Shown here: positions 114 to 30,148 of the stretch, piece after piece
Numbering within the stretch: the stretch's first letter is position 1
Layout: each line of letters begins with the position of its first letter
Translations under genes and position numbers: made by a program
NCBI GenBank assembly: GCA_946480485.1
Contig: CAMLJW010000003.1
Location: 1 to 32,491 of the forward strand
Length of the DNA stretch: 32,491 bases
Source: an uncultured Streptomyces sp.
GTDB lineage: Bacteria > Actinomycetota > Actinomycetes > Streptomycetales > Streptomycetaceae
Direction: 5' to 3'
Notes under the pieces: generated by a model
Told to the model about the DNA's origin: nothing
Database searches by the model: none
The model's input: only the letters and a program-made list of their open reading frames with translations

Positions 114-527
114 TCAGCCAGCCGTGTTCACCATCGACGCCGCCGCGTACGTCAGGTAGTTCCACAGCGTGCGCTCGTGCTCCTCGGAGAGGCCGAGTTG
201 GTCGACGGCGACCCGCATGTGCTTCAGCCAGGCGTCGTGCGCCGCGCGGTCGACGGCGAAGGGGACGTGGCGCATCCGCAGCCGAGGGTGGCCGCGGTTC
301 TCGCTGTACGTGGTCGGGCCGCCCCAGTACTGGATCAGGAACAGGGTGAGACGCTCCTCGGCCGGGCCCAGATCCTCCTCGGGATACATGGGCCGCAGCA
401 GCGGGTCCTCGGCGACACCCTTGTAGAAATTGTGCACGAGGCGCCGGAAGGTCTCCTCCCCGCCGACCTGCTCGTAGAAGGTCTGCTCCTGAAGCGTGCC
501 GCGCCGAATCTCATTCACGCTGTCCAT
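114..527 (-). CDS. glbO: Truncated haemoglobin, group II (GlbO type)
   Basis: Small haem protein of 137 residues that binds O2 and takes part in redox or NO chemistry in the cytoplasm. The sequence matches the group II truncated globin pattern: FYKGVAEDP near residues 34-42 with Tyr35 as the likely B10 residue, MYPEE (Tyr48, CD1 position), QYWGGP at 66-71, RGHPRLRMRH with His87 as the proximal F8 ligand, and DAW with Trp100 at the G8 position diagnostic of groups II and III. The reading frame is open further upstream, but I place the start at the ATG at 527 because homologues begin about here and the upstream extension is Pro/Gly/Arg-rich with no family similarity. It is divergent from the methyltransferase at 724. 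Ligand and physiological role are inferred from the family only. Confidence 0.93.
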   Translation of the reverse strand: MDSVNEIRRGTLQEQTFYEQVGGEETFRRLVHNFYKGVAEDPLLRPMYPEEDLGPAEERLTLFLIQYWGGPTTYSENRGHPRLRMRHVPFAVDRAAHDAWLKHMRVAVDQLGLSEEHERTLWNYLTYAAASMVNTAG

Positions 528-599
528 GGTCTCAGACGCGCGACCGACGACCCGAGGCTGGGACCACCCCCGCCCGCGGGCCCGGAAGCGATGAGGCTC

Positions 600-651: not shown

Positions 652-723
652 CTGGTCCGGTTGCCGGCGGTCTGGCCGGTTCCGGCGCTCGCCCGGTGGG
701 CCGTTGGGCAGCACAGTGGAGGT

Positions 724-1704
724 ATGAGCGCGCATGCCATCGACCACGGGCCGGCCGACCTCGCGGCCATCGCGCGGGCGGAGCTCGTACGCGAGATCGA
801 CGCGAGCGGGGCCTGGGACGCCGACCCGGTCTGGCGGGAGGCGTTCGAGAGCGTCCCGCGCCACCTCTTCGTGCCGTACTACTACGTCGGCGCACAGGGA
901 GGCTACGAACGCCTGTGGGGCGAGGACCGCGACCCACGCAGGCATGAGCGCTGGCTGCGCGGCGCGTACTCCGACTCCCCGCTGGCCACGCGGGTGCGCA
1001 ACGGTGAGCTGCTCTCGTCCAGCAGTCAGCCGTCCCTGATGGCGAAGATGCTGACGGAGCTGGAGGTGAGGGAGGGGAACGCGGTCCTGGAGGTCGGCGC
1101 GGGCACCGGCTACAACGCGGCCCTGCTCGCCCACCGGCTGGGTGACGGCCTGGTCACCACGATCGACCTGGACCCGGAGATCACCGAGTCGGCCCGGCAG
1201 CACCTGGCCGTCGCCGGGTACCACCCGGCCGTCGTCACCGGTGACGGCTCCCGCGGCTGCCCCGAGCGCTCCCCGTACGACCGGATCATCGTGACCTGCA
1301 CGGTGACCTCGATCCCGCGCTCCTGGCTCGCCCAGTGCCACCCCGGCGCCCACATCCTCGCGCCGTTCGCGACCGGCCTGATCGACCTGCGTGTACGCGG
1401 GGCAGAGCACGCCGAGGGACGTTTCCTGGACACACCCGCCTACTTCGTGCCGCTGCGCGGCGCCGACCGGCCCGAGCCCCAGCCCCCGGCCGGCGGCGGA
1501 CTGCCGCGCCGGGCCATCCAGGACGAGCTCTTCCGCTTCCTGCTTGCCCTCACCGCGGGTGTCCTCGACCCGCACGAGGCCCTGGCCCTGTGGGAGCGCG
1601 CGGAGCACCCGGTCCGCGAGCGGTACGGGATCACGGTCCGCGGCGGCCGCGAGTGGGCCTGGCTGGACGACCCGGAAGGGCCGTACGCATGGCCGCTCGC
1701 GTGA
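724..1704 (+). CDS. PCMT-like SAM-dependent methyltransferase
   Basis: Predicted 326-residue methyltransferase of the protein-L-isoaspartate O-methyltransferase superfamily. The SAM-binding motif I is clear (VLEVGAGTGYN, residues 121-131), preceded by a Ser-rich SSSSQPSLMAKML segment (98-110), which in this family sits at the substrate/SAM site. An acidic post-I strand follows (TTIDLDPE). The N-terminal SVPRHLFVP motif is typical of PCMT-like proteins. The protein is longer than the roughly 210-residue repair enzyme, with an added C-terminal region of unknown role, as seen in actinobacterial relatives, some of which modify RiPP peptides. The start at 724 follows a GTGGAGGT Shine-Dalgarno site. 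It converges on the FHA gene with a 17-bp gap. Substrate unknown; no RiPP precursor lies beside it. Confidence 0.85.
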   Translation: MSAHAIDHGPADLAAIARAELVREIDASGAWDADPVWREAFESVPRHLFVPYYYVGAQGGYERLWGEDRDPRRHERWLRGAYSDSPLATRVRNGELLSSSSQPSLMAKMLTELEVREGNAVLEVGAGTGYNAALLAHRLGDGLVTTIDLDPEITESARQHLAVAGYHPAVVTGDGSRGCPERSPYDRIIVTCTVTSIPRSWLAQCHPGAHILAPFATGLIDLRVRGAEHAEGRFLDTPAYFVPLRGADRPEPQPPAGGGLPRRAIQDELFRFLLALTAGVLDPHEALALWERAEHPVRERYGITVRGGREWAWLDDPEGPYAWPLA

Positions 1705-1721: not shown

Positions 1722-2996
1722 TCAGCCCCGGTGGATCGTGATCGTCGTCCACGCACCCACATGCACCCGGTCGCCGTCCCGCAGCGGTACGGGGACGAAG
1801 GGCTGGATGGGCTCCTCGGCGCCGTTGACGGTGGTGCCGTTGGTGGAATTCTGGTCGACGACCGCCCAGGTGCCGTCGGGCTGCTGGACGAGGACCGCGT
1901 GCTGGTGCGAGACGCCCGGGTCCTCCGGCGGCACCGACAGGTCGATGTCCGGGGTGTCACCCGTGGAGTGGCGACGGCGGCCGATCGTGATCTGGTTGCC
2001 GGTGAGCGGGCGCTGCTGCTCCGGCGAGTACGCGGGCAGGTTCAGGCCCGTGGCCTCCGGACCGGAGCGCTGCATCATCGCCATGAAGTACTCGCGGTCG
2101 GGCCCGATCGTCATGCTCCAGGACATCGGCTGCTGCTGGTACCCGGGCGGCGCCTGGGTCGGGCCTGGCTGCGGGTAGCCGTACCCGCCCTGACCGGAAG
2201 CGCGGCCACCCGGACCGGAAGCGGGTCCACCCGGACCGGCGGGCGCACCGCCCGCGGGACCAGACGGCGGCGAGAGGACCCAGTCGTCGCCACCGCCCCC
2301 GAAGGACGGCCCGCCCGGACCCTGCGGGTGCCCGGTCTCCTGTCGATACGGAGGCGGCGGCGGCCCGCCGGGCTGCTGGAAGGCCTGCGGCGCACCGGGC
2401 ACACCTGGACCGCCCTGCCCGCCCCCGGCCGGCGGGGGAACCGGACGCGAGGGATCGCCGGGGAAGCCCGACGGCACTGCTGGACCCGACGGCTCCCCGC
2501 CGAACGGCGGGATCGGCTCCGCGGGCCGGTTCATCTGAGAGGGCCGTGAGCTCTGGTAGTCGTACGGATCATGGTCGGAACCGGGTGGTCCGGGCGGCTG
2601 GTGCTGGAACCGGAGCGCCGGGTTCGGGCCGTTCGGTCCGCGGGGGCCGGGCCCTGCCCCGGGTGCCGACGGTGGCGGCGCGGCCGGGGTGTACGAGGTC
2701 GCCGTGTTCGTCAGGAAGTTCCACCGGCACTCCTCGCAGAACGGCGCCCCGCCCTCGCGCGGGGTGCGGCACTGCGGGCAGAGCCCCTGCCCGGGAGCCA
2801 GGTCGGGAACGGCGGACAGATGCGGGCGACCGCCCTGGCCGGGCGGCGGCGGGGGCGAACCGGGCGGCGGATAGCCGTAGCCGGCCGCCGGTGGCGGGAG
2901 CGGCGGGGGTGGGGGTACGGCTCCGGCCACGCGGTGACCGCAGACCTCGCACCAGTCGTCGGAACCCGACTGGTGTCCGTTCGGGCAGGTCGGCAT
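1722..2996 (-). CDS. Zinc-ribbon FHA-domain protein, last gene of the PknG-type operon
   Basis: Cytoplasmic phosphothreonine-binding protein of 424 residues. The N-terminus carries two zinc-binding knuckles: Cys4/His8/Cys16/Cys19 and Cys73/76/87/90. A long Pro/Gly-rich low-complexity linker (about 100-290) follows, including repeated PGGPASGPGG-like units. The C-terminal FHA domain (about 336-424) keeps the core residues: GRRR at 339-342, Ser363-x-x-His366 in VSHQH, and NSTNG with Asn386, so phosphothreonine binding is expected. A DREYFMAMM segment ahead of the domain is common in actinobacterial FHA proteins. The start follows a GGAGAGGGGGAAG Shine-Dalgarno stretch. It is the promoter-distal gene of the operon and a candidate reader, or GarA/OdhI-like effector, of the kinase three genes upstream. 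It lacks the compact GarA architecture, so equivalence is inference. Confidence 0.9.
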   Translation of the reverse strand: MPTCPNGHQSGSDDWCEVCGHRVAGAVPPPPPLPPPAAGYGYPPPGSPPPPPGQGGRPHLSAVPDLAPGQGLCPQCRTPREGGAPFCEECRWNFLTNTATSYTPAAPPPSAPGAGPGPRGPNGPNPALRFQHQPPGPPGSDHDPYDYQSSRPSQMNRPAEPIPPFGGEPSGPAVPSGFPGDPSRPVPPPAGGGQGGPGVPGAPQAFQQPGGPPPPPYRQETGHPQGPGGPSFGGGGDDWVLSPPSGPAGGAPAGPGGPASGPGGRASGQGGYGYPQPGPTQAPPGYQQQPMSWSMTIGPDREYFMAMMQRSGPEATGLNLPAYSPEQQRPLTGNQITIGRRRHSTGDTPDIDLSVPPEDPGVSHQHAVLVQQPDGTWAVVDQNSTNGTTVNGAEEPIQPFVPVPLRDGDRVHVGAWTTITIHRG

Positions 2997-3105
2997 GTCG
3001 GCGCTTCCCCCTCTCCTGTCCGGCCCTGGGGGCCGAAGTTCTCCGTCCCCCTCGGTACAGGGGCCGGGCTCGTTGCTCCGGCACCCCGGGGAGGGGCCGG
3101 ACCGC

Positions 3106-4452
3106 CTACTTCTTCACACGAACAGTCTTTGTGGACCGCGTCTCGAGCGTCATCTCGTCGGCGTTTTCGACCTTCGCCTTCAGTCGCACAGTACCTGCCG
3201 GAGCGTCGACCACGTCCACCACCTTCGCAAGCAGTCTCGCCGTATCGGCGTTTCCGGAGATGCTGGCGAGCTGAACGGCGCGGCCCAGCTTGGCCGTTGC
3301 TCCATCGACATCTCCCGCTTTACGGGCATCCAGTCCCTGTTGGATGACGTGTGCCAGTTCGGCCTGGCCCGTGTAGTGGGCGACCTGCGGGTTGATCGAC
3401 GTGGAGGCCGCCATGTCGTCGGTCCACACGGCCCGTACGAGGCCCTGTGCCCCCAAGGTCTGGGTGGTGCCGTCGGGTTGCGGGATCACCAGGGAGACCC
3501 GGGCCGCGAGCATCTCCTGGCCGATGCCGGCCTCGGGTACCTGGACGCACACGTGGTAGTCACGGGACTCGTCGCCCCAGGAGCCGGTCGGATAGTCCCC
3601 GGCGCGCGGGCCGGCCTCCGTACGGCGGTCGGTCAACTCCTCGACCGTGGGCGCGACCTGTTTGACGAACTTGATGGATGTGCCCACCGGCGTCCACAGC
3701 CGCAGGGCGACGTCCGCGACCTCCTTGCCCATGGCCGTCTCCATCATCCGCCTGAAGTCGGCGGACAGGCCCGCCGGGTCGGCGACGATGTCGGCGGTGC
3801 CGAGCAGCGCGGAGGCGATCCCGGTGACCTCCTTGACCTCCCAGTCGGTGCCCACGCCCCGCGCGTCACAGGTGAAGCGGCCATCGCAGGTGTCAAGGGC
3901 CGCTTTCAGGTCCTTGGCCGACTCGTGTTCGTTGCGGCCGTCGGTGAGCAGGATGCCGTGCCGGATCGCGACGTCCGCCGAGGAGAGCAGTCGGTCGGCC
4001 AGTCGCAGCCAGGTGCCGATCGCGGTGCCGCCGGCCGCGCTCAGCCTACGCAGCGCTTGCTTGGCCTGGTCGCGGGTCCCCGCGTCGGCGACCGCGAGCC
4101 GTCCGCCGCCCGGGTAGACCTCCTTGGCCACGTGCGTACCGCCGATCACCGCGAAGTGCACGCCGTCGCGCAGGGCGTCGATCGCGGCTGCCGTCGCGTC
4201 CCGGGCGCCGCGCATCTTCGCCGGCGGGTAGTCCATCGAGCCCGAACAGTCGACCATGATCGCCACGGCCGCTTCCGGGCCCTGCCCCGGCGTATGGCGA
4301 GGCGGCGCGGCGACCGTGCCGCATCGGGTGCCGCCGCCGGTCGAGGTCACCGTCGCGATCGCGTTGACCTCGCGGCCGCCTTCCGGCAGGTACTCGTTCT
4401 GGTACACGTCCACCGAGAACTGCGGCACGTTCGACTTCGAGAGATTGGCCAT
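3106..4452 (-). CDS. VWA-domain protein of the PknG-type operon
   Basis: Protein of 448 residues with a von Willebrand factor A domain beginning near residue 61. The metal-ion-dependent adhesion site is complete: Asp68-x-Ser70-x-Ser72 (DCSGS), Thr143 in the GGTAIGTWL loop, and Asp171 in LLTDGRN. No signal peptide or membrane segment is visible, so a cytoplasmic Mg2+-dependent protein-protein interaction role is likely. The C-terminal half has beta-rich segments and a helical TPR-like stretch (GLDARKAGDVDGATAKLGRAVQLA). The start at 4452 is preferred to the one ten codons upstream because it begins the conserved-looking MANLSKSNVPQFSVD segment and has AGAAGAGG just before it. It lies 177 bp after the PP2C gene and 109 bp before the FHA gene. 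Partner unknown; probably an adaptor in the phospho-signalling module. Confidence 0.88.
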   Translation of the reverse strand: MANLSKSNVPQFSVDVYQNEYLPEGGREVNAIATVTSTGGGTRCGTVAAPPRHTPGQGPEAAVAIMVDCSGSMDYPPAKMRGARDATAAAIDALRDGVHFAVIGGTHVAKEVYPGGGRLAVADAGTRDQAKQALRRLSAAGGTAIGTWLRLADRLLSSADVAIRHGILLTDGRNEHESAKDLKAALDTCDGRFTCDARGVGTDWEVKEVTGIASALLGTADIVADPAGLSADFRRMMETAMGKEVADVALRLWTPVGTSIKFVKQVAPTVEELTDRRTEAGPRAGDYPTGSWGDESRDYHVCVQVPEAGIGQEMLAARVSLVIPQPDGTTQTLGAQGLVRAVWTDDMAASTSINPQVAHYTGQAELAHVIQQGLDARKAGDVDGATAKLGRAVQLASISGNADTARLLAKVVDVVDAPAGTVRLKAKVENADEMTLETRSTKTVRVKK

Positions 4453-4585
4453 GCCTCTTCTGCTCCCCCTCAGGACTCTCACGAACTGTGGGACATGTCG
4501 GTGAGCGGACCGGTCCCCTCCGGCCCGGGACCGTTCCCGACCGGCCCATGCGGCCGGGATTACGCACCGGCCCCTGGGATTGGTC

Positions 4586-4631
4586 TCCGTCCGGCCTCTG
4601 AGACCGGTTTCCGTCCGGTCCGTCCGGCCTC
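4586..4631. repeat. 13-bp direct repeats in the PP2C-VWA spacer
   Basis: TCCGTCCGGCCTC occurs at 4586-4598 and again, perfectly, at 4619-4631; the second copy overlaps the PP2C stop codon. The rest of the 177-bp spacer (4453-4629) is filled with related CCGG/ACCGGT variants and no gene. The composition resembles the repeats near 600-690. It may form RNA structure between the two operon genes, but no function can be read from it. Confidence 0.6.
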
Positions 4632-5892
4632 AGGCCGATCCTGCCCCCGGTGGTGGCGCCGGGAACGGCAGGACGGCCACTGTTACGTTGTCGTGGCCCC
4701 CGCCGTCCAGGGCGTGGCCGACCAGAACCTGGGCGCCGTGCAGCGGCCGGACGGCGGCGTCGGGTGGGATGACCTGGGCCATCTCCTCGGCCGCCTCCGC
4801 GTAGTTCCACAGCCCGTCGGTGCACACCACCACCACACCCGGCCGGTCCGGTTTGAAGGAAGCGGTGTGCGGCTCCAGTTCGTACGCGTCCGCCCCGAGC
4901 CAGCCTGTGATGGCATGGGCGCGCTCGTCGGCGTATGCCTCGGCCTCGTTCATCAGGCCCGCGGCGACCATCTGCGCGGCCCACGAGTCGTCCTCCGTGA
5001 GCCGGGCCGCGGGTGAACCCCGGTCCAGGGGAACCCAGTAGGCGCGGCTGTCGCCCACCCAGCCGACGATCAGCAGGCTGGGGGTGACGACGGCGCCGAC
5101 GAAGGTGCAGGCCGGCGCGTTCTCGTGCGGCGCGTCCTCCTTCGGCGGGGCGGCCCCCGCCAGGGAGTTGACCGCCCCCGAGGCGGCGACGATCGCGTCG
5201 TGCATGGCCTGCTGCGGGTGCGTACCCCGTGGCAGGGCCTCCAGGAGCGCTTCGTTGGCGGCGTGGGACGCGGCCAGGGAGGCCTCGTCGGGGCGGGTCG
5301 CCGATGACACGCCGTCGCAGACGACCGCGACGACAGCGGGGGAGCCGTCGGGCAACGCGGTCGACGACACGGCGAAGGCGTCCTCGTTGCGGTGGTGGCG
5401 CAGCCCCCGGTCACTGACCGCGGCGACAGCCCCCAACTCCTGCTCCATGTGGTCCCGTTCGCGTGGCTGGGCGTGTCCGCAGTTCTCGCAGTAGCCGTCG
5501 CGGTCGACCTGGCCCGCGCGGCAGGCCACGCACAGTTTGGTGCCCGCCAAGGGTGTCGCGAAGTCGGCCGTCCGTGGATCGGGTGCCTGCAAGGGGTACT
5601 CGTCCGGCTCCGGATGCCCGTCGAACCGTACTCCCGGTTCACATGGTCCAGCCGGTCCAGCCGACTCCGGTCCGGCCGGCCCGGGTACGACCGGGACGTC
5701 CGCCGGGTTCACGGGCGCGACGGCCGACGGGGGCGTCGGCACCCTGCGGTTCACGGTCATCGTGGGGCTGTCGTCCGGCGACGCGGGCGCGGCCGACAGG
5801 TCGTACCCGCACGCACCGCAGAAGCGGTCGCCCGACTCCAGCGGCTCCTCGCAGCCGGGGCACTTCGACAACGCCGGGGGGATGTGCGACAT
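4630..5892 (-). CDS. PP2C-family Ser/Thr protein phosphatase with two N-terminal zinc ribbons
   Basis: Predicted Mn2+/Mg2+-dependent phosphoprotein phosphatase of 420 residues. Two zinc ribbons precede the catalytic domain: Cys11/14/25/28 and Cys121/124/135/138, separated by a Pro-rich linker. The PP2C domain starts near residue 155 and has the expected motifs: SDRGLRHHRNED (Glu170, Asp171), VVCDGV (Asp193, metal ligand), GWVGDSRAYW, VVCTDGLWNY (Asp359) and GGHDNVTV (Asp401). All metal ligands appear intact, so it should be active. No membrane segment is seen. The ATG at 5892 lies three bases after the kinase stop codon, giving tight co-expression. It is the obvious candidate to reverse the neighbouring kinase's phosphorylations. 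Substrates are inferred from context only. Confidence 0.94.
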   Translation of the reverse strand: MSHIPPALSKCPGCEEPLESGDRFCGACGYDLSAAPASPDDSPTMTVNRRVPTPPSAVAPVNPADVPVVPGPAGPESAGPAGPCEPGVRFDGHPEPDEYPLQAPDPRTADFATPLAGTKLCVACRAGQVDRDGYCENCGHAQPRERDHMEQELGAVAAVSDRGLRHHRNEDAFAVSSTALPDGSPAVVAVVCDGVSSATRPDEASLAASHAANEALLEALPRGTHPQQAMHDAIVAASGAVNSLAGAAPPKEDAPHENAPACTFVGAVVTPSLLIVGWVGDSRAYWVPLDRGSPAARLTEDDSWAAQMVAAGLMNEAEAYADERAHAITGWLGADAYELEPHTASFKPDRPGVVVVCTDGLWNYAEAAEEMAQVIPPDAAVRPLHGAQVLVGHALDGGGHDNVTVAVLPFPAPPPGAGSA

Positions 5893-5895
5893 GAA

Positions 5896-8463
5896 TTACA
5901 CCCACGTCCGGGGGCGGTAACGGTTTGCGCGCTCCACCAGTTCGATCCTCTCCTCGCCACTCTGGGCGAGACGGGCCAGTGTCCGGTAGGAGCGCTCCAG
6001 ACCGAAGCGGAGGCCTCGCTCATCCAGTTCACTGCCGAGCAGTACGGTCCGTGCACCGGTGTTCGGCGGCACGGAACCCTGGCTACCGGAGAGTACCCAG
6101 TCCAGGGCGCAGCCAAGGACCTCTGTGGACAACTGCTCGCGGCGGACCGCGTCGAGTCCGTATCCGCCCAGCGCCTCGATCTGTCCCGCCGCCGCGGTGA
6201 GGTCCTCCAGGAACGGCGCGTCGGGCGCCTCGTTCCTACGGTGCCGCAGGCGCGCCCGTACGGCGGCGACGCGGGCCGCCGTGTAGTGGATCGACGCCTC
6301 CGGCACCGACTCCAGGGTCCGTACGGCACCGCGGCGGTCGCCCGCCGCGAGCTGTACGCGGGCCAGCCCGAACGCGGCGCTCACATGGCTGGGGTCGGTC
6401 GTCCACACGAGGCGGTAGTACTCGGCGGCGTTGTCCAGCTGCCCGAGGACCTCCGCGCACAGGCCGAGGGCCAGCTTGGGGGCGGGCTCGCCGGGGAACG
6501 CGTCGTAGATGGCGTCGAAGGACAGCGCCGCGGTTTCGTACGCGGCGGTCGCGAGGGCCGCGACACCCCGGTACCAGACCACCCGCCAGTCGTCGGGGTG
6601 GTCCGCCTCCAGGGCCGCGAGCGTTCTGGAGGCACTGTCGAGTTCACCCGTCTCCAGGCGGGCCCGCAGCTCGCGCAGCCGCAGCTCCGGCGAGCCGGTG
6701 GGCGCCGCGTGCAGCGCGGCGATCAGCTCCACGGGCGCGGACGCCAGAAGGCCCGCCAGGAATCCCGCGTTCGGGTCGCCGGGGTCGACCCGGGGGACCG
6801 GCATCGCGAGCGCGGCGGCGGCCGTGCTGAGCGGCTTCACCAGCGCGGCCGAAGGGGGCGCGAGAGGCGGCGCGCCGTTCGCCCCCGGTGTCTGTGCGCC
6901 GGGCGGCAGTTCGGGCGCGCCCTTCTTCCGGCGACCGCGACCTTGACCGCGACCGGGGATGACCCGCGCCCCCAGCCGCGACACGTCCCCGTCCAGCTGC
7001 TCGAACAACTCCGTGTCCGTGACCCTGAGTTCTGGCCCGAAGAGTGTGGACAGCGAGGGACGAGGACGGCCCGTCCGGAGCGCCACGACCTCGCGCAGCA
7101 CGCCCGTCAGCTGCTCCGACATCTCCCGCGCGGACGCGAACCGGCGGGCCGGGTCGGGGTCGGTGGCGCGCACCAGCAGCCGGTAGAAGGACTCGTACGT
7201 GCGGAAGACCTCGATGTTGTCCGGGTCGGGCAGGGAGTCCACGAAGACGTGCGTGTAGCCCTGGAAGTCGAACGTCAGCACGGCGAGCGTACGGGCGACG
7301 GTGTAGAGGTCGGAGGCGACCGACGGGCCGGCCTCGGCGACCTCCGGCGCCTGGTAGCCGACCGTGCCGTAGATGGCCGACTCGTCGTCATCCATCCTGC
7401 GCACCGCGCCCATGTCGATCAGCTTGAGCTGGTCCTCGGTCTGGATCGCGTTGTCGACCTTGAAGTCGCAGTACAGGAGGTTGCGGCTGTGCAGGTGCCC
7501 GAGGGCTTCGAGCGCCTCGATGCCATACGCGCAGGCCTGTCCCACCGGCAGCGGATCGCGCCTCCCCGCCGCTGTACGACGCCCGTTGGCGATCTCCTTG
7601 AGGGACTTGCCGCCGACGTACTCCATGACGATGTAGCCGTCCAGGGAGCCCGTGCGCTGGTCGAGGTGCTCGACGAAGTTGTAGATGCGCACGATGTTGG
7701 CGTGCTCGATCTCGGCGAGGAAGCGGCGCTCGGAGATCGCGGCCGCCATCGCGTCCTGGTCGCCCGTGTCGAGCAGGCCCTTGAGGACCACCCAGCGGTC
7801 GGACACCGCGTGGTCCACGGCGAGGTAGATCCAGCCGAGCCCACCGTGCGCGAGGCAGCCCACCACCTCGTACTGACCGTGCACGATGTCACCCGCGCGC
7901 AGCTTCGGCACGAACGAGTACGGGTGTCCGCACTTGGTGCAGAAGCCCTCCGTACGCCCTGGCCGGTCGTCGCGCGCCCGCCCGACCGGCGCCCCGCAGT
8001 CGGAGCGCGAGCAGAACCGCTTCCGCTCGGGCACCTCGGGGTTCTCCTGGACCATCTCGCGCGGATCGGGGCGCGGCACGTCCGGCACCGTGACGAGTCC
8101 GACGCCCAGCCGGCCGCGACCGGAGGACCCGGCCGTCGAACCGGAGCTGCGCACCGACACCGAGCGGCCCGTCGCGCGCCCCGACAGCGAGCGCGACAGA
8201 CGGCCCGACACCGAGCGCCGCGACTGCGAGGCGCGGGACGAGGCGCGGGAGCCGGAGCGCGAACTGCCGGTGTCGGAGCCGCGCGAGCCCATGCCGCCCG
8301 CCGTGATCCCGGTAGGCGGGGAACCCACCATGCCGCTTGCCGACACGACCGGCGCCAGACCGCACGTGTCGCAGTACAACTCGCCGCCGCCCACGTCCTC
8401 GTACGACCCGGAACAACCGGGGCGCTGGCACTGCTTGCGCTCGCTCACATCCTGCTCACTCAC
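5896..8463 (-). CDS. pknG: PknG-like Ser/Thr protein kinase with zinc ribbons and TPR domain
   Basis: Soluble kinase of 855 residues. Order: two zinc ribbons (Cys12/17/31/34 and Cys151/156/175/178) separated by a Ser/Arg/Gly-rich linker (about 58-118), kinase domain (about 197-480), helical TPR region to the C-terminus. PknG hallmarks include the unusual ATP loop AHGGLGWIY (205-213), Lys228 in VVLKGL, a YCDFK catalytic loop (Asp333, Lys335) in place of HRD, Asn338, and IDMG (Asp350) in place of DFG. In mycobacterial PknG a rubredoxin-like domain occupies the N-terminal position; here paired ribbons with CxxxxC...CxxC spacing do. The GTG at 8463 overlaps the upstream stop (GTGA) and follows a GGAGGGGGG site, which decides the start. 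Mycobacterial PknG controls 2-oxoglutarate metabolism through GarA; the same role here is inferred. Confidence 0.95.
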   Translation of the reverse strand: MSEQDVSERKQCQRPGCSGSYEDVGGGELYCDTCGLAPVVSASGMVGSPPTGITAGGMGSRGSDTGSSRSGSRASSRASQSRRSVSGRLSRSLSGRATGRSVSVRSSGSTAGSSGRGRLGVGLVTVPDVPRPDPREMVQENPEVPERKRFCSRSDCGAPVGRARDDRPGRTEGFCTKCGHPYSFVPKLRAGDIVHGQYEVVGCLAHGGLGWIYLAVDHAVSDRWVVLKGLLDTGDQDAMAAAISERRFLAEIEHANIVRIYNFVEHLDQRTGSLDGYIVMEYVGGKSLKEIANGRRTAAGRRDPLPVGQACAYGIEALEALGHLHSRNLLYCDFKVDNAIQTEDQLKLIDMGAVRRMDDDESAIYGTVGYQAPEVAEAGPSVASDLYTVARTLAVLTFDFQGYTHVFVDSLPDPDNIEVFRTYESFYRLLVRATDPDPARRFASAREMSEQLTGVLREVVALRTGRPRPSLSTLFGPELRVTDTELFEQLDGDVSRLGARVIPGRGQGRGRRKKGAPELPPGAQTPGANGAPPLAPPSAALVKPLSTAAAALAMPVPRVDPGDPNAGFLAGLLASAPVELIAALHAAPTGSPELRLRELRARLETGELDSASRTLAALEADHPDDWRVVWYRGVAALATAAYETAALSFDAIYDAFPGEPAPKLALGLCAEVLGQLDNAAEYYRLVWTTDPSHVSAAFGLARVQLAAGDRRGAVRTLESVPEASIHYTAARVAAVRARLRHRRNEAPDAPFLEDLTAAAGQIEALGGYGLDAVRREQLSTEVLGCALDWVLSGSQGSVPPNTGARTVLLGSELDERGLRFGLERSYRTLARLAQSGEERIELVERANRYRPRTWV

Positions 8464-9779
8464 GATTCCCCCCTCCGGTCCTGCGGTTCCCCTTGGCCGG
8501 GGACCTTGGGCACCAGCAAGTCGACGGCCGCCCGCTGGTAGCGCAGCACCGCCTGTTCCGCCACGCGCAGATCGCACGGTGCGCTCCACAGCATGCGGCG
8601 CGCCGTGTCGTAGTGCTCCACCAGCAGCGGGTCCTCCGCGAGGCCGTGCCGGGCGACCTTCGCCCTGTACGCGTCGAGGCGGCCGCGCAGCTCCGCGCGG
8701 ACCGCCAGCGGAGCGGTGACGGCCGACAACGACTCGCGTGCTCTGAGGAGTTCGTCCTCGGCCTTCTCCTCCAGGGCCTCCAGCAGCGGCGAGAGGCGGT
8801 GCCACTGCGCGTGTCTGCGGTACTCGGCGGCCGTCGCCAGCTGCTCCCGCAGCGCGGTCGGCGGGCCGCTGACCGCGGGCACCTCCGACGCGGCGATCTT
8901 CGCCAGCACCTCTCCGCGCGCGGACCGCGCCTCGGACAGCGTGCGTTCCGCGCGCGAGAGCACGTCCCGCAGCTTCACCAGCCGCGCCTCCGCGTCCTGC
9001 CGGACACCGAGCACCGCGTCGATCTCCCGGCGCACCTCCTCCAGGGCGCGCGCCTGCCGGTCGTAGCGCGTGGTGCCGGGGCGGCCGCCGCCCGGCGCCG
9101 AACTGCCCTGCCCGGGCAGCCAGAACGCCAGCGGATCGGACACCACCTGCTCGCGCAGGGCCGTGAGCGTGCGGGTGATCCGCTCCAGGTCGTCGCCCGC
9201 CGGATGCTCACCGGGCCGTACTCCTACGGAGTGCGCGAGCCGGCGGGTGCGCTGCAACTCCGCGGCCAGCAGATCGATCCGGGCGGGCAGCGCCGACCAC
9301 ACGGCGTCGGCCGCCACGACCATGTCGAGCGACTGGGCGTACAACTGGTTCATGCGCTCGACGAGTTGGGCGAGGGTGAACTGTTCGCTGAGCTTCCCGG
9401 TGCCGGAGACGGTGGGCGCGCAGGCCGCGGCGGCGGAGCCGGCCACCGTGACGCTCTCGCCGCGCAGCAGCTCCGTCAGCTCCGCCAGGTCGTCGCGGTT
9501 CGGCCAACGTCTGCGGGAGCGCACCGCTCGCGCGGAGCGCAGGGCGCCGGTGTACGCGTCGAAGTACGTCCACAGCAGCGTGATCGACGCCTCGGCGGCC
9601 GCCCAGCGCTCCCGGGTCGTGCCCGTGAGCTCGGCGCCTTCGAGGAGTCTGCGGCCCGCGTGGTCCTGCAGCGCGAGGAGTGAGGTCTCCATGGCCTCGT
9701 GCTCCGCGCCGAGCCGCGCCAGCGCACGGTCCACCTCGTCCCGGTCCATCACCGGCCCGGAGGGTACCGCGGCGCCCAT
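8460..9779 (-). CDS. Helical/coiled-coil protein of unknown function between glnH-like and pknG-like genes
   Basis: I do not recognise a named family. The 439-residue product is almost entirely alpha-helical by composition (Ala, Leu, Glu, Arg) with heptad-like stretches, for example around residues 240-320 (DRQARALEEVRREIDAVL, SRAERTLSEARSARGEVL). No signal peptide, membrane helix or catalytic motif is visible. It starts at ATG 9779 or possibly at the internal ATG at 9749 (MDRDEVDRALARL); 9779 is kept as the longest. It is translationally coupled to the kinase through a GTGA overlap and follows the solute-binding-protein gene by 78 bp. Its fixed place between sensor and kinase suggests a scaffold or adaptor linking membrane sensor to kinase. 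That is inference from position. Confidence 0.85.
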   Translation of the reverse strand: MGAAVPSGPVMDRDEVDRALARLGAEHEAMETSLLALQDHAGRRLLEGAELTGTTRERWAAAEASITLLWTYFDAYTGALRSARAVRSRRRWPNRDDLAELTELLRGESVTVAGSAAAACAPTVSGTGKLSEQFTLAQLVERMNQLYAQSLDMVVAADAVWSALPARIDLLAAELQRTRRLAHSVGVRPGEHPAGDDLERITRTLTALREQVVSDPLAFWLPGQGSSAPGGGRPGTTRYDRQARALEEVRREIDAVLGVRQDAEARLVKLRDVLSRAERTLSEARSARGEVLAKIAASEVPAVSGPPTALREQLATAAEYRRHAQWHRLSPLLEALEEKAEDELLRARESLSAVTAPLAVRAELRGRLDAYRAKVARHGLAEDPLLVEHYDTARRMLWSAPCDLRVAEQAVLRYQRAAVDLLVPKVPGQGEPQDRRGES

Positions 9780-9857
9780 CGATCACCTCTCACTCTTGGT
9801 CGTTCCCGGCACGCGTCCCCCCGCGCCCGGGTAACTCTCCAGTCGTATCAGGTCGGT

Positions 9858-10865
9858 TTATCGGTACTGGACCGGGGGCGGTCCCGACGATGCGCCGAGG
9901 CTCGCCGCGAGCCACTTGTCGTACGACTGTTCCCAGCCGTCCTTGCGGTAGTCCACCAGGACCTGATTGACCCGGCGTACCAGATCGTCGGCGCCCAACT
10001 TCATCGCCACGCCGTAGTACTCGTCGGTGAACCGCTCGCCCTTGAGCTCGACCGTCGGGTCCTGTGCGGCCTGGCTCGCGGCGAGCGCGCCGTCGGTCAC
10101 CACGGCGTCGACCTCGCCGAGCTGAAGCCTCACCAGGCAGTCGAGTTGGTTGGGCACGGTGGTGTCGATGTCGGCGGAGGCGACGAGGTGGCCGTCCTTC
10201 TTGTCCGCCTCCAGGTTCTGGTGGGCGGTGGAGCCCGCCGCCGAGCAGATCTTCTTGTCCGCGAGCGACTCGTCGTACCCCGTGATGTCCGAGTTCTTCG
10301 GAGCCAGCACCTGCTGGCCCGTCTCGAAGTAGGGGGACGAGAAGGACACCTCCTCCAGCCGGTCGCAGGTGATCGTCATCGTGCGGACCACCATGTCGAC
10401 GTCGCCGTGCTGGATCGCCGGGACACGCTGGTTGGTCGGGATGGCGCGGAAGCGGATGGCGTCCGGGTCGCCGAGGACCTCCTTGGCGATCCGGTGCGCC
10501 AGATCGATGTCGAAGCCCTCCAGCTCGGCCTTCTTCGAGGTGCTGTTCGGGTCGCGGTAGCCCCAGCGGAAGCTGTTCTGGTCGATACCGACGGACAGGT
10601 ACCCGCGGTCCTTGATGGCCTGGACCGTCGTGCCGTTCTGCTCGCCGGACGGCGACAGGCTCTGGTCCTGCGGGGCGGGGCACTCCTCGTCGGCCTGGAT
10701 CTGCCGGCCCTTGGCCGTGCCCTGGCCGCCCACGCCCGTGCTGCCGTCCCCGCGGGACTGGGCCAGCGGCAGCACCAGTGCGAAGACCGCCGTCAGGGCG
10801 CAGACGACCGCCATCGCGCCCACGCCGCCCCAGCCCTTCAGACAGGAACGTACTTGCCGTTTCAC
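9858..10865 (-). CDS. glnH: GlnH-like extracytoplasmic solute-binding protein (family 3), membrane-anchored
   Basis: Predicted amino-acid-binding protein of 335 residues. One hydrophobic segment near residues 10-37 would export and probably anchor it; the only Cys there follows AVV, not a good lipobox, so it is likely a signal anchor rather than a lipoprotein, unlike classical GlnH. The mature part has the family 3 pattern: LSVGIDQN, FRWGYRDPN, EGFDIDLAHRIAKEV, the IPTNQRVPAIQHGDVDMVV segment and FSSPYFETGQQVL. No ABC permease or ATPase accompanies it, which argues for sensing rather than transport. The GTG at 10865 is chosen over the one at 10871 because the GAGGGGG site is seven bases upstream of it and only one base from the other. 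It lies 14 bp after the glnX-like stop. Ligand (Asp/Glu by analogy) is inferred. Confidence 0.9.
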   Translation of the reverse strand: MKRQVRSCLKGWGGVGAMAVVCALTAVFALVLPLAQSRGDGSTGVGGQGTAKGRQIQADEECPAPQDQSLSPSGEQNGTTVQAIKDRGYLSVGIDQNSFRWGYRDPNSTSKKAELEGFDIDLAHRIAKEVLGDPDAIRFRAIPTNQRVPAIQHGDVDMVVRTMTITCDRLEEVSFSSPYFETGQQVLAPKNSDITGYDESLADKKICSAAGSTAHQNLEADKKDGHLVASADIDTTVPNQLDCLVRLQLGEVDAVVTDGALAASQAAQDPTVELKGERFTDEYYGVAMKLGADDLVRRVNQVLVDYRKDGWEQSYDKWLAASLGASSGPPPVQYR

Positions 10866-10879
10866 CGTCACGCCCCCTC

Positions 10880-12352
10880 TCACCGGTACTCCGACAGACG
10901 GCGCCCGATGCCGAGCACGGCACCCGAGGCGCCCAGGACGGCGAGCACCGCGGCGCCCGCCGGCAGGCCGGCCATCGCGCCCCGGCCGTCGTCGGCCGTC
11001 AGCTCGAACTCGGTCTGCTCGTGGGTGAGTGCCTTCCGCAGGTCGGTGTCCACGTTGTCGAAGCACTCGCCCGTCGGTTTGTTCTCCTTGGAGCCGATCA
11101 CCTTGTCGAGCGCGCCCTGATAGTCGCCGGAGTCGTCCGCGGCGCGGGCTTGCTCGTGCCGGTCCTGCCAGACCTTCATGTTGCTTGTCGCGTCCTGCAC
11201 AGGTGTCTCGCCCGCGCCGTCGTCGGCGAGGTCCTCGGCCTCACCCAGCTTCACGGCGAGTTCCTTCATCTGCGCCTTGTAGTCGTAGTCATACGCGTCC
11301 ACGGTCACGTCGCCGACCACCTTGGTCTGGGCGCCGCGGCTGACCAGCGTCAGGTTCTCGTTGCCGCGGGCCTTGAGGGAGGCGATGCGGGCGTCGTTCA
11401 GCACGTTCAACGACCGTACTCCGTCGTCGTACGACTCGTTCAGCCCGGACCGGGCGACGCTGTGGCCGACGACCAGCCAGAGCAGCACCACCGTGGAGGC
11501 GGCGGTGGCTGCGACCATGCCGTGGTTCAGCACCCGGTTCGTACGCCGGTAGTCGCGCCGCTGGGCCCAGACGAGCCCGCCGATCGCGAGGACGCCGACG
11601 CCGATCGCGATCCACGGGTAGGGCGTCGCGGTGTCGTAGTCGGAGCGCAGCCGCTGGTTTTCCATCGTGTAGAGATCCTCGGCGTCCTTGAGCATCTCGT
11701 TCTGCATCTTCTCGTTGGCGTACCGCAGATAGGCGCCGCCGAGCGGGTAGCCCTGCCGGTTGTTGGCCCGGGCGCGCTCGATGAGGCCCTTGTACTCGGG
11801 CAGCAGCTTGTTCAGCCGGGCGATGGTCTTCGCCGACGGGGAACCGGGCTTGGAGTTGGCCGCCGCGTTGACCAGCTTGTCCGCGGCCGTCCTCATGCCC
11901 TCCTCGTACCGTTTGCGGGAATCGGCCGTCTCCTGGCCGCCCGCCAGGAAGCCGCTGGAGGCCGCCGTGTTGGCGTCGGCGAGTGAGCGGTAGATGAGTG
12001 CCGCGTCGGCACTCAGCGGCTGGCTGCCGTGCAGCACGTCGTCGGCGGCGGCCGAGCGGTCCGTCATCTGCCAGGCGGTGAGTGTGCCGAACGCCACGAC
12101 GAGGAGGGCCAGCAGAGCGCCGATGACGCGCAGCCGCCCAGCCTCGGTCGTCGCGGCGGCACGCAACTGGTCGACGCCTTCAACCCAGGCCCTACGGCGT
12201 GCGGGCGCGGCGTCGGGCAGGGTCGGCCGGCCCTGCGACGTGGGCGCCCCCGACCGCGCCATGGCCGGCGGCCCGGTCTGCGGCGGCACGACCGGCATCG
12301 TGGGCGGGCCCGCTCCCGGTGGCGCCGGACTGCCATTCGGCGTGTATGTCAC
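10880..12352 (-). CDS. glnX: GlnX-like four-helix transmembrane sensor
   Basis: Integral membrane protein of 490 residues. A Pro-rich cytoplasmic N-terminus (1-50) is followed by a membrane helix at about 75-96, a helical extracytoplasmic domain (about 97-243), two central helices (about 245-263 and 278-299), a second helical extracytoplasmic domain rich in Asp/Glu, and a final helix (about 459-482) with a very short RRLSEYR tail. Two periplasmic four-helix-type sensor domains between four membrane spans match mycobacterial GlnX, which relays amino-acid binding by GlnH to PknG. The GTG at 12352 follows GGGGAAGG with a short spacer; upstream in-frame sequence is non-conserved in character. It is the first gene of the seven-gene operon. 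Without a kinase or HAMP domain of its own it must signal by contact, presumably with downstream gene products. Confidence 0.85.
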   Translation of the reverse strand: MTYTPNGSPAPPGAGPPTMPVVPPQTGPPAMARSGAPTSQGRPTLPDAAPARRRAWVEGVDQLRAAATTEAGRLRVIGALLALLVVAFGTLTAWQMTDRSAAADDVLHGSQPLSADAALIYRSLADANTAASSGFLAGGQETADSRKRYEEGMRTAADKLVNAAANSKPGSPSAKTIARLNKLLPEYKGLIERARANNRQGYPLGGAYLRYANEKMQNEMLKDAEDLYTMENQRLRSDYDTATPYPWIAIGVGVLAIGGLVWAQRRDYRRTNRVLNHGMVAATAASTVVLLWLVVGHSVARSGLNESYDDGVRSLNVLNDARIASLKARGNENLTLVSRGAQTKVVGDVTVDAYDYDYKAQMKELAVKLGEAEDLADDGAGETPVQDATSNMKVWQDRHEQARAADDSGDYQGALDKVIGSKENKPTGECFDNVDTDLRKALTHEQTEFELTADDGRGAMAGLPAGAAVLAVLGASGAVLGIGRRLSEYR

Positions 12353-23308: not shown

Positions 23309-25912
23309 CTACTCCTGCGCCGCCGCGTCCGCCGCCTGTGCCTTCAGCGCGCGCTCGACACCGGAACGGGACTCTGAGACGAGCCGGCGCAGCGCCGCGT
23401 TCGGCTCGGCCAAGGCCAGCCAGGCGTCCGTCTTCTCCAGGGTGTCCTGGGACACCTGCACGGACGGGTAGAGGCCGACCGCGATCTGCTGGGCCATCTC
23501 GTGCGAGCGGGACTCCCAGACGTCCTTGACCGCGGCGAAGTACTTCTCCGTGTACGGGGCCAGCAGTTCGCGCTGGTCGGTCTGGACGAAGCCGCCGATC
23601 ACCGCTTCCTGTACGGCGTTCGGGAGCTTGTCGGACTCGACGACCGAGGCCCAGGCCTGCGCCTTCGCCTCCTCGGTCGGGCGGGCGGCCCGGGCGGTCG
23701 CCGCGTGGCGCTTGCCGGCGGCCGTCCTGTCCCGCTCGTACTCGCCCGCGATCTCCGCCTCGTCGAACCGGCCCACCGCCGCGAGCCGCTGTACGAACGT
23801 CCACCGGAGCTCGGTGTCGACGGCCAGCCCCTCGATGGTCTCCCGGCCGTCGAGCAGGCTCTCCAGGAGGTCCAGCTGGTCCGGTGTACGGGCGGTCGCG
23901 GCGAAGGCGCGCGCCCAGGCCAGCTGGTGGTCGCTGCCCGGCGCGGCCGAGCTCAGGTGTGCGAGGGTGGCCTCGGTCCAGCGGGTCAGGCCGGTCTCGC
24001 GCCAGGCCGGGTCCGCGTACAGCTCGAGGGCCAGCTTCGCCTGGCGGTGCAGCGACTGTACGACGCCGATGTCCGACTCCTTGCCGATGCCGGACAGCAC
24101 GAGGGACAGGTAGTCGCGGGTGGCGAGCTCCGCGTCGCGCGTCATGTCCCAGGCCGAGGCCCAGCACAGGGCACGGGGGAGGGACGCCTCGAAGTCGCCC
24201 AGGTGCCGCGTCACGAAGGCCAGCGACCGCTCGTCGAGGCGGACCTTCGCGTAGGAGAGGTCGTCGTCGTTGAGGAGCACGACCGCCGGGCGGCGCTTGC
24301 CCACCAGCCCGGGTACGGCGGTCAGTTCGCCGTCGACGTCCAGTTCGATGCGCTGGTCCCGCAGGAGCTTGCCGCTGTCATCGTCCAGGTCGTAGAGGCC
24401 GATGGCGATGCGGTGCGGGCGCAGCGTCCCACGCGGCGGAGCCGCGTCATCGGATGCGGCCCCCTTCGCGCCGGCGGGGAGGGCCGGGGCCTCCTGGCGG
24501 ACCGCGAACGACGTCATGACGCCGTTCGGGTCCGTCTCGATTTCCGGGCGGAGAATGTTGATGCCGGCGGTCTGGAGCCATTTCTCCGACCAGTTCCCCA
24601 GGTCACGCCCGCTGGTCTCCTCCAGCGCGCCAAGGAGGTCGGACAGGCGCGTGTTCCCGTACGCGTGCGTCTTGAAGTACGCCTGGACGCCCTGGAAGAA
24701 CTCGTCCATGCCGACGTACGCGACGAGCTGCTTGAGTACGCTCGCGCCCTTCGCGTAGGTGATGCCGTCGAAGTTGACGAGGACGTCGTCGAGATCGCGG
24801 ATCTCGGCCATGATCGGGTGGGTCGAGGGAAGCTGGTCCTGGCGGTACGCCCAGGTCTTCATCTGGTTCGCGAAGGTGGTCCACGCGTGCGGCCACCGCG
24901 ACTCGGGGGAGTACGCCTGGCAGGCGATGGAGGTGTAGGTGGCGAACGACTCGTTCAGCCACAGGTCGTTCCACCACTCCATGGTCACGAGATCGCCGAA
25001 CCACATGTGGGCCAGCTCGTGCAGGATGGTCTCGGCGCGCGTCTCGTACGCGGCGTCCGTCACCTTCGACCGGAAGACGTACTGGTCGCGAATGGTGACC
25101 GCGCCCGCGTTCTCCATCGCGCCCGCGTTGAACTCCGGCACGAAGAGCTGGTCGTACTTCTTGAACGGGTACGCGTAGTCGAACTTCTCCTGGAACCACT
25201 CGAAGCCCTGCCGCGTGACCTCGAAGATCGCGTCCGAGTCGAGGAACTCGGCGAGGGAGGGGCGGCAGTAGATGCCGAGCGGGACGGACTGCCCGTTCTT
25301 CTCGTACATGCTGTGGACGCAGTGGTACGGCCCGACGACGAGCGCGGTGATGTACGTGGAGATCCGAGGCGTCGGCTCGAAGACCCAGATACCGTCCTTG
25401 GGTCCGGGCGTCGGCGAGTTGGAAATGACCGTCCAGCCGGTGGGCGCCTTCACGGTGAACTGGAAGGTGGCCTTCAGGTCGGGCTGCTCGAAGGACGCGA
25501 ACACGCGGCGGGCGTCCGGCACCTCGAACTGCGTGTAGAGGTACGCCTGTTGGTCGACGGGGTCGACGAACCGGTGCAGCCCCTCACCGGTGTTGGTGTA
25601 CGCGCAGTCGGCCACGACCCGCAGGACATTGCGCCCCTCCAGGATGCCCGGGAGCGTGATCCGCGAGTCCTTGAAGACCTCGGCGGGGTCGAGCTGGTCG
25701 CCGTTGAGGGTGACCTCGTGGACGGTCGGGGCCACCAGATCGATGAAGGACTCGGCGCCGTTCTCGGCCGAGTCGAACCGCACCGTGGTCACGGACCGGT
25801 AGGTTCCGCCCTCCTGCGCGCCGGAGAGGTCGAGATCGATCTCGTACGAGTCAACGCTGAGCAGCTTCGCCCGCTGCTGAGCCTCTTCGCGGGTCAGGTT
25901 TGTGCCAGGCAC
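23309..25912 (-). CDS. pepN: Aminopeptidase N (M1 family), copy 1
   Basis: Zinc metallopeptidase of 867 residues, cytoplasmic, removing N-terminal residues from peptides. The exopeptidase motif GAMEN is at 264-268 and the zinc site is HELAH (His298, Glu299, His302) with Glu321 as third ligand in WLNESF. Length and the long helical C-terminal domain fit the four-domain actinobacterial PepN. GTG 25912 follows GAGGAG with an eight-base spacer, and the first residues MPGTNLTREEA match the start of the paralogue at 27347-29929. No signal peptide. It is separated from asd by a terminator and its own upstream region (25913-26058), so it is probably transcribed alone. Confidence 0.97.
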   Translation of the reverse strand: MPGTNLTREEAQQRAKLLSVDSYEIDLDLSGAQEGGTYRSVTTVRFDSAENGAESFIDLVAPTVHEVTLNGDQLDPAEVFKDSRITLPGILEGRNVLRVVADCAYTNTGEGLHRFVDPVDQQAYLYTQFEVPDARRVFASFEQPDLKATFQFTVKAPTGWTVISNSPTPGPKDGIWVFEPTPRISTYITALVVGPYHCVHSMYEKNGQSVPLGIYCRPSLAEFLDSDAIFEVTRQGFEWFQEKFDYAYPFKKYDQLFVPEFNAGAMENAGAVTIRDQYVFRSKVTDAAYETRAETILHELAHMWFGDLVTMEWWNDLWLNESFATYTSIACQAYSPESRWPHAWTTFANQMKTWAYRQDQLPSTHPIMAEIRDLDDVLVNFDGITYAKGASVLKQLVAYVGMDEFFQGVQAYFKTHAYGNTRLSDLLGALEETSGRDLGNWSEKWLQTAGINILRPEIETDPNGVMTSFAVRQEAPALPAGAKGAASDDAAPPRGTLRPHRIAIGLYDLDDDSGKLLRDQRIELDVDGELTAVPGLVGKRRPAVVLLNDDDLSYAKVRLDERSLAFVTRHLGDFEASLPRALCWASAWDMTRDAELATRDYLSLVLSGIGKESDIGVVQSLHRQAKLALELYADPAWRETGLTRWTEATLAHLSSAAPGSDHQLAWARAFAATARTPDQLDLLESLLDGRETIEGLAVDTELRWTFVQRLAAVGRFDEAEIAGEYERDRTAAGKRHAATARAARPTEEAKAQAWASVVESDKLPNAVQEAVIGGFVQTDQRELLAPYTEKYFAAVKDVWESRSHEMAQQIAVGLYPSVQVSQDTLEKTDAWLALAEPNAALRRLVSESRSGVERALKAQAADAAAQE

Positions 25913-29929: not shown

Positions 29930-30148
29930 GGGCGGCACTCCCTCGTGGCTGCATGCTGGTTGATGACTGGTACGGGGCTGGTTGTGTGGCTGGCTGGGCG
30001 ACTCCTTCGACCAGCACCGATCCTGCCATGTGCCACTGACACCTGACACCTGGGAATGGACCGCGTGACCGACGGTGTTGGCGCTGATAGACAGCACCCG
30101 AGTCCCTCACCGCGCTCAGCGCCCGTACCGCCGTCACGTAGGAGAGCC

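Follow-up and report, generated by a model that had tools for sequence, protein, structure and literature searches.

What does a PknG-type kinase work with when its gene lies among genes for a phosphatase, a VWA protein and an FHA protein? PknG has been studied in mycobacteria and corynebacteria, where, to our knowledge, the operon holds no phosphatase gene. We analysed a stretch of 32,491 nucleotides from an uncultured Streptomyces sp. (contig CAMLJW010000003.1; hereafter the window, meaning the whole stretch), with 64–74% G+C per 2-kilobase (kb) window. Seven minus-strand genes, running from 12352 to 1722, encode GlnX, GlnH, a helical protein, a PknG-type kinase, a PP2C phosphatase, a VWA protein and an FHA protein. 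Translation, sequence and profile checks agree with the first-pass annotation on these genes and their positions. That annotation took them for an extension of the mycobacterial pknG-glnX-glnH unit, whereas our comparisons indicate that the seven-gene block is probably ancestral and the three-gene operon a reduction of it. The earlier observation was right and understated; its interpretation is partly supported, being right in outline and wrong in direction.

The features of the locus, by position in the window, are:

12352 (GTG) to 10880, minus strand: glnX, membrane signal transducer of the GlnX family (NF058618, 494.2 bits, cut-off 250)
10865 (GTG) to 9858, minus strand: glnH, family-3 solute-binding protein (SBP_bac_3), aligned to 6h1u
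9779 to 8460, minus strand: helical protein of 439 residues, mostly long helices (AlphaFold2 model)
8511 to 8882, minus strand: C-terminal domain (about residues 300–423) within the helical protein, also present in one trypsin-like and one EAD1 protein encoded upstream of paralogous kinase–VWA pairs
8463 (GTG) to 5896, minus strand: PknG-type kinase of 855 residues, with an extra zinc ribbon, a Ser/Arg/Thr-rich linker, a rubredoxin domain, the kinase domain and TPR
8359 to 8430, minus strand: zinc ribbon at the N-terminus of the kinase (C12, C17, C31, C34), from the translation and counted in relatives
5892 to 4630, minus strand: PP2C phosphatase (PP2C_2, NF033484), with two N-terminal zinc ribbons and intact metal-site residues
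5809 to 5862, minus strand: PP2C zinc ribbon 1 (CPGC...CGAC), from the translation
5479 to 5532, minus strand: PP2C zinc ribbon 2 (CVAC...DGYCENC), from the translation
4452 to 3106, minus strand: VWA protein (VWA_3 and VWA_3_C; PDB 4fx5), with an intact metal ion-dependent adhesion site (MIDAS) and a VWA_3_C domain
3124 to 3144, minus strand: C-terminal Thr/Ser motif ETRSTKT of the VWA protein, residues 437–443, a candidate phospho-acceptor tail (sequence motif)
2996 to 1722, minus strand: FHA protein with two N-terminal zinc ribbons, a Pro/Gly-rich linker and a C-terminal FHA domain (PF00498, 61 bits)
2940 to 2987, minus strand: FHA protein zinc ribbon 1 (CPNGH...CEVC), from the translation
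2727 to 2780, minus strand: FHA protein zinc ribbon 2 (CPQC...CEEC), from the translation

Conservation of the block

The window's nearest kin are Streptomyces, and we compared the best 80 of at least 576 relatives. All seven genes were present, in identical order and strand, in 72 out of these 80 loci, the other eight ending at contig ends. This co-occurrence lies far beyond chance. Mean identity to the window was 87% for the VWA protein, 83% for the helical protein, 80% for the kinase, 76% for the FHA protein, 73% for PP2C, 68% for GlnX and 65% for GlnH.

We then surveyed 296 genomes of the class Actinomycetes, among which 99 had PknG_TPR above its cut-off and 98 a strong PknG match. A total of 100 regions was fetched from 90 of these 98 genomes, and each fetched locus received an L-number. 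Their neighbours were typed by profiles, with counts being profile hits in stop-to-stop frames and order counts taking genes on the kinase's strand. VWA proteins were counted only at scores above 400 (L115–L214) or 300 (L348–L367), which omits the partial ones of L137, L168, L205, L349 and L355. By genome (n=90), PP2C was adjacent to the kinase in 65, all seven families were present in 46 and six, without requiring the helical one, in 54. By region, 45 were colinear with the window, 15 were rearranged (helical-kinase-PP2C-VWA-FHA-glnX-glnH), 22 carried glnX and glnH only, 11 were extended without glnX and glnH on the kinase's strand and seven were lone kinases. The 22 consist of a three-gene group of 19, the contig-cut L176 and L190, and a separate case, L170; the group includes L115 and L117, which are cut shortly after the kinase, so that only the absence of the helical gene between glnH and the kinase is visible there.

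The core order kinase-PP2C-VWA-FHA was kept in 56 out of 56 loci, across deep clades. The helical gene lay upstream of the kinase in all 52 cases, and glnX preceded glnH in all 82. The glnX-glnH pair was found upstream of the core in 44 loci and downstream in 15; given that it may stand on either side, the block comprises two submodules, glnX-glnH and a five-gene core. Non-conservation outside close relatives, which the first-pass annotation had named as one outcome that would refute it, did not occur: the block is conserved far beyond them. A wider search of the phylum gave a single strong PknG match outside the class sample, L332, whose 3.9-kb stretch shows kinase, PP2C and VWA.

Some loci depart from these types. 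In L138, L186 and L198, PP2C adjoins the kinase, and the VWA and FHA genes were not found by tblastn, nor was the helical gene in L186 and L198; L138 is cut upstream of the kinase. In Frankia-type genomes, a second helical-kinase-PP2C-VWA-FHA block that lacks glnX and glnH is seen at L359 and L360, and also at L358 and L363, where no kinase was recognised.

Direction of change

A first kinase tree was built from 95 rows (94 of the 100 regions plus the window) and 676 columns; a second was thinned to 75 rows and rooted on three paralogues. Support values are Shimodaira–Hasegawa-like approximate likelihood ratios (SH-aLRT) from a quick search. In both trees, the main three-gene clade, together with two lone kinases, falls inside the extended forms (100, starred). 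Its sister is L143, a colinear, zinc-ribboned locus (99, starred), to be read with the caution that it stems from a record, G285, that may be a mixed assembly, and extended forms occupy the other deep clades. Because of this nesting, the extended block is most likely ancestral, which reverses the sense of an extension from three genes to seven. Record G285 itself carries three-gene-type and extended PknG loci on separate contigs (L121, L143 and L365).

The helical, PP2C, VWA and FHA genes were lost a second time in L170, within the rearranged clade, where glnX directly follows the kinase. L145 represents a third three-gene case, which perhaps shares the loss of the main clade (grouping support 88, unstarred).

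Kinase, phosphatase and FHA reader

The kinase scored above cut-off with PF16919 (PknG_rubred, 101.8 bits), PF00069 (Pkinase, 85.7 bits) and PF16918 (PknG_TPR, 290.8 bits), and its best PDB match is Mycobacterium tuberculosis PknG (2pzi, 9e-168). In the class sample, the catalytic residue Asp333 was kept in 95 out of 95 kinases, Asp350 in 94, and Lys228 and Asn338 in 93 each. The PP2C residues Asp171, 281, 359 and 401 were each kept in 59 out of 59 proteins and Asp193 in 58, while the phosphothreonine-binding residues of the FHA domain were kept in 60 out of 60 (Ser363, Asn386), 59 (His366) and 58 (Arg340). Kinase, phosphatase and reader therefore look active, judging by these residues, and the first-pass view that the sensor comes together with its own writer, eraser and reader holds, the active-site and binding motifs of these three being intact. 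Compared with the VI_FHA model (TIGR03354, TagH of type VI secretion), the FHA protein reached 35.6 bits, under the cut-off of 120.25.

Ribbon-like cysteine patterns recur across these proteins, and they predict zinc binding. The pattern used misses degenerate or distant ribbons, so the counts are lower bounds. A ribbon before the rubredoxin domain of the kinase was present in at least 37 out of 45 colinear loci, 12 out of 15 rearranged, five out of 11 without glnX and glnH, none of the seven lone kinases and none of the 19 three-gene loci; L170 and L176 each carry one. The PP2C domain was preceded by one or more N-terminal ribbon-like patterns in 63 out of 66 loci and the FHA domain in 55 out of 60, often with a DGYC-x-x-C core.

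The VWA protein and its tail

The first-pass annotation had left the VWA and helical proteins unassigned, and both can now be assigned in part. The VWA protein is related over its full length to PDB 4fx5 (458 bits, residues 6–448), a structure from Catenulispora acidiphila (PMC6509490), and the five MIDAS positions were kept in 58 out of 58 homologues. Its last residues follow the motif [DE][TAS]xS[TV]xT, with ETRSTKT in the window. Among 70 VWA proteins encoded beside PknG-family kinases, the window's included, the motif was present in all 59 with an adjacent PP2C gene and in none of the 11 without one, so none was discordant. A narrower form, [DE][TA]xS[TV]xT, had no other occurrence in the 26,116 residues of the same frames.

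A precedent for an FHA–VWA pair exists in Sulfolobus, where ArnA (zinc finger plus FHA) is reported to bind ArnB (vWA) through the ArnB C-terminus, a site of known phosphosites, with binding fading on starvation; the structure of the ArnB homologue vWA2 was superposed on 4FX5 (PMC6509490).

The helical protein and paralogous kinase–VWA loci

No Pfam or NCBIfam family matched the helical protein above cut-off. Its AlphaFold2 model consists of long helices (predicted local distance difference test score 90.5, predicted template modelling score 0.73), and a structural search with this model gave no reliable match. The family is present in 64 out of 296 genomes; all but two of these have a strong PknG match, which gives 62 out of 98 PknG genomes versus two out of 198 others (Fisher p=2e-35, a value that ignores kinship). 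Both exceptions, L348 and L349, appear decayed or poorly assembled. L348 (G280:C1:1826001-1846000) comes from a genome that yielded no PknG; frames for the helical, PP2C and FHA proteins stand there in order, kinase, VWA, glnX and glnH were not recognised, and the locus has the look of a decaying copy.

The C-terminal domain of the helical protein recurs at the end of a trypsin-like protein of L214 (29 bits), of similarly placed proteins of L351–L354 (30–36 bits) and of an EAD1 protein of L210 (66 bits). In each of these loci the protein is encoded upstream of a PknG-family kinase gene, which is followed by a VWA gene. Of 156 hits to the domain in 37,112 frames of PknG loci, 118 lay upstream of the kinase frame under a strict distance rule, 33 overlapped a long kinase frame and five were in loci without a recognised kinase (L348, L358 and L361–L363). 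This placement suggests that the helical protein could be an adaptor to the kinase–VWA pair.

The EAD1 protein (PF19955) occupies L210:7336-8193, directly upstream of kinase and VWA. L214 and L351–L354 come from Streptomyces-type genomes, and their VWA proteins end in a zinc ribbon, not a Thr/Ser tail.

The sensor

GlnX passes its family model and falls below the narrower equivalog NF041460, kinase G-activating GlnX (174 bits against 780). In GlnH, the positions of mycobacterial GlnH (MtGlnH) R147, K161, T162, S164, R169, W232 and D250 read R, R, T, T, R, Q and D in the alignment to 6h1u: R147, T162, R169 and D250 are retained, and K161, S164 and W232 are changed. R169, D250 and S/T164 hold the amino-acid backbone in MtGlnH, with Trp232 and Lys161 among the side-chain contacts (PMC6069109). 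The Asp-specific MtGlnH pocket is thus not matched in full by the window's GlnH, with W232 and K161 altered. Position 232 is Trp in all 19 three-gene loci (L170, L176 and L190 apart), Tyr in all 15 rearranged loci and Gln in 22 of the 45 colinear loci, being varied there. The GlnH ligand is probably an amino acid whose identity is not transferable from MtGlnH, and the first-pass annotation's analogy to the mycobacterial Asp/Glu ligand cannot be relied on.

The link between GlnH, GlnX and the kinase is backed genetically in mycobacteria and Corynebacterium glutamicum, physical contacts being undemonstrated at the time of these papers (PMC6069109, PMC9769921, PMC8546545), and the PknG TPR domain has been proposed to serve GlnX (PMC8546545). 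The kinase of the second, Frankia-type module of L359, which has no glnX or glnH, is without a PknG_TPR match, and this fits that expectation.

Upstream of the GlnH binding domain, a lipobox-like motif was seen in 19 out of 22 three-gene-typed, 27 out of 45 colinear and 10 out of 15 rearranged loci (L115–L214). By eye, the window's GlnH has no clear lipobox, and its anchoring may differ.

Proposed mechanism and competing explanations

The best explanation, to which we give a little short of an even chance, is a complete module leading from an extracytoplasmic nutrient to phosphothreonine, in its ancestral form and with the VWA tail as in-operon target. An amino-acid-like ligand would bind GlnH, and GlnX would relay the state of GlnH across the membrane to the kinase's TPR domain, as in the published pathway. 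The kinase would then phosphorylate a module partner, for which the conserved Thr/Ser tail at the C-terminus of the VWA protein is the likeliest candidate; the zinc-ribbon FHA protein would dock onto the phosphorylated form, and PP2C would reset it. The helical protein may link kinase and VWA through its C-terminal domain, the zinc ribbons of kinase, phosphatase and FHA protein could aid their assembly, and GarA, encoded elsewhere, is possibly a second output. What we propose as new is the in-operon target, a VWA tail marked by the kinase, read by the FHA protein and erased by PP2C. The observed basis is gene content, intact motifs, conservation, three-gene nesting and the co-occurrence of tail motif and PP2C; interactions, substrate, signalling direction and zinc binding are what we infer from it.

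Several observations weigh against this reading. The VWA protein is dispensable in some loci: L144 and L165 retain helical, PP2C and FHA genes with no VWA by tblastn, and the tblastn matches to VWA in L137 and L168 are weak and partial. L186 retains PP2C, glnX and glnH without helical, VWA or FHA genes. The match between tail motif and PP2C amounts to three changes on the VWA tree (52 of the 70 rows), with two to three independent pairs and a sign test p of 0.5; the link is suggestive, not significant. The VWA profile reaches the ArnB homologue 5a8j at an E-value of only 0.24 over 43 positions. Single Thr mutants of ArnB still bound ArnA, and no phosphopeptide fell with lost binding, so that the phosphorylation dependence of that pair is proposed, not proven, in PMC6509490. 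The outgroup of the kinase tree is long-branched. Lastly, three of the six junctions are loose. The tight spacing of the first-pass annotation is exact for glnX-glnH (14 base pairs, bp), the GTGA overlap into the kinase gene and kinase-PP2C (3 bp), and the remaining gaps measure 78 bp (glnH-helical), 177 bp (PP2C-VWA) and 109 bp (VWA-FHA). Given these loose gaps, and the medians of the same gaps in the Streptomyces loci where the start was placeable (68.5 bp, n=76; 102 bp, n=76; 73 bp, n=54, respectively), internal promoters are possible.

The main rival holds that GarA is the chief target, as in mycobacteria: the kinase would mark its Thr-Ser-Thr (TST) motif and so control 2-oxoglutarate dehydrogenase, with FHA, VWA and helical proteins as scaffold or tuning parts and PP2C resetting GarA. 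We consider this unlikely, while granting that GarA control has been established for mycobacteria and C. glutamicum and that GarA phosphorylation was seen in Saccharopolyspora erythraea (PMC9769921, PMC6069109, PMC12321487). GarA orthologues with a TST motif are present in related extended-module genomes, encoded elsewhere than the operon; the operon's FHA protein, which the first-pass annotation had likened to GarA, is accordingly a different protein. We examined GarA in 110 genomes. Where it carries the motif ETTSVF or ERTSVF, a ribbon was found in none of 25 genomes (19 with a typed three-gene locus, six untyped), while 40 out of 41 other PknG genomes had a ribboned GarA. In nearly all extended-module genomes GarA is thus zinc-ribboned, like the kinase and PP2C. 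However, a ribboned, mostly TST-like GarA is equally common in the control genomes without PknG (ribbon in 42 out of 44), so neither feature marks PknG, and this explanation gives no reason for the conserved VWA tail or for an FHA domain within the operon. Since the ribbon also occurs in PknG-less genomes, a ribbon on GarA represents the general state, lost in the three-gene line. Its loss coincides with that of the other ribbons and genes, and may have been a single event.

A bolder extension, which we hold to be doubtful, reads the zinc ribbons as an assembly code that brings kinase, PP2C, FHA protein and the distant GarA onto one VWA/helical platform. The mycobacterial line would have dropped the platform together with the extra ribbons and replaced them with the phosphothreonine docking segment of PknG. 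If true, textbook PknG biology would describe a stripped-down survivor, with GarA as only one of at least two ancestral outputs.

Less probable still is a regulated-assembly or conflict-type switch, in which a nutrient sensor was grafted onto a triad of kinase, VWA and helical adaptor and the output is the assembly of a protein complex rather than metabolism. The recurrence of the helical C-terminal domain in trypsin-like (L214) and EAD1 (L210) proteins directly upstream of kinase–VWA pairs is in line with it, as are the triads of an often zinc-ribboned kinase, PP2C and vWA in actinobacterial GAP1-N2 conflict systems (PMC7159879). Against it, PADLOC defence models match the kinase alone among the seven proteins, through generic kinase models, and the locus, which includes a sensor, is stable and highly conserved, whereas conflict systems have variable effectors. 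That the genes are neighbours without a shared circuit, forming two or three units (glnX-glnH-helical-kinase-PP2C, VWA and FHA) kept together for expression or by descent only, is very improbable: the loose gaps could contain promoters, glnX-glnH sits on either side of the core and some loci are without VWA or more, but the core order is invariant across deep clades, the four-gene block was lost at least twice, zinc ribbons are shared and the tail motif is tied to PP2C.

Genes around the module

Beyond the FHA gene lie a convergent methyltransferase-like gene (721–1704, plus strand) and then a globin-like gene (about 114–545, minus strand), both named by eye. The downstream globin gene was found in 59 out of 80 Streptomyces loci, mostly with the convergent methyltransferase gene in between. 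The divergent glycosyltransferase gene upstream of the window's glnX was found in none of the 80 (tblastn, E-value 1e-10). Farther away, at 23309–25912 and 27347–30097 on the minus strand, translations read by eye show a pair of long aminopeptidase-like genes, related to each other and separated by a dehydrogenase-like gene.

Comparison with known systems

Should the three-gene operon be a reduction, the additional genes would reveal the original partners of the kinase: a phosphatase of its own, an FHA reader, an adaptor and a VWA protein that carries a candidate phospho-tail. The proposed module also offers a first guess at the role of the VWA protein of the solved structure 4FX5, and it warns against transferring the Asp/Glu ligand to Streptomyces.

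The closest known system is the GlnX-GlnH-PknG-GarA/OdhI pathway of Mycobacterium and Corynebacterium, with which the window shares the GlnX family, an adjacent family-3 solute-binding protein, the PknG TPR domain and the order glnX-glnH-pknG, as well as, with mycobacteria, the rubredoxin domain (PMC6069109, PMC9769921, PMC8546545). It differs from that pathway in four more genes, the extra N-terminal zinc ribbon of the kinase, the altered side-chain pocket of GlnH and the zinc-ribboned GarA of its relatives.

The archaeal ArnA-ArnB motility module resembles the block in pairing an FHA protein that has an N-terminal zinc-binding motif with a vWA protein, alongside kinases and a phosphatase (PP2A there), and binding in the archaeal pair depends on nutrients (PMC6509490); the window's FHA protein shows the same kind of trait, with two Cys-type ribbons before its FHA domain. 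The kinases, phosphatase type, sensor and zinc-finger type are different, the output of ArnA-ArnB is archaellum genes, and no clear sequence kinship of the VWA proteins was found (E-value 0.24 for 5a8j). The triads of GAP1-N2 GTPase systems are similar by description, with an active, often zinc-ribboned kinase, an adjacent active PP2C and a standalone vWA (PMC7159879). These triads accompany GTPase and GAP1 genes, and PknG has no occurrence in the main text of that paper.

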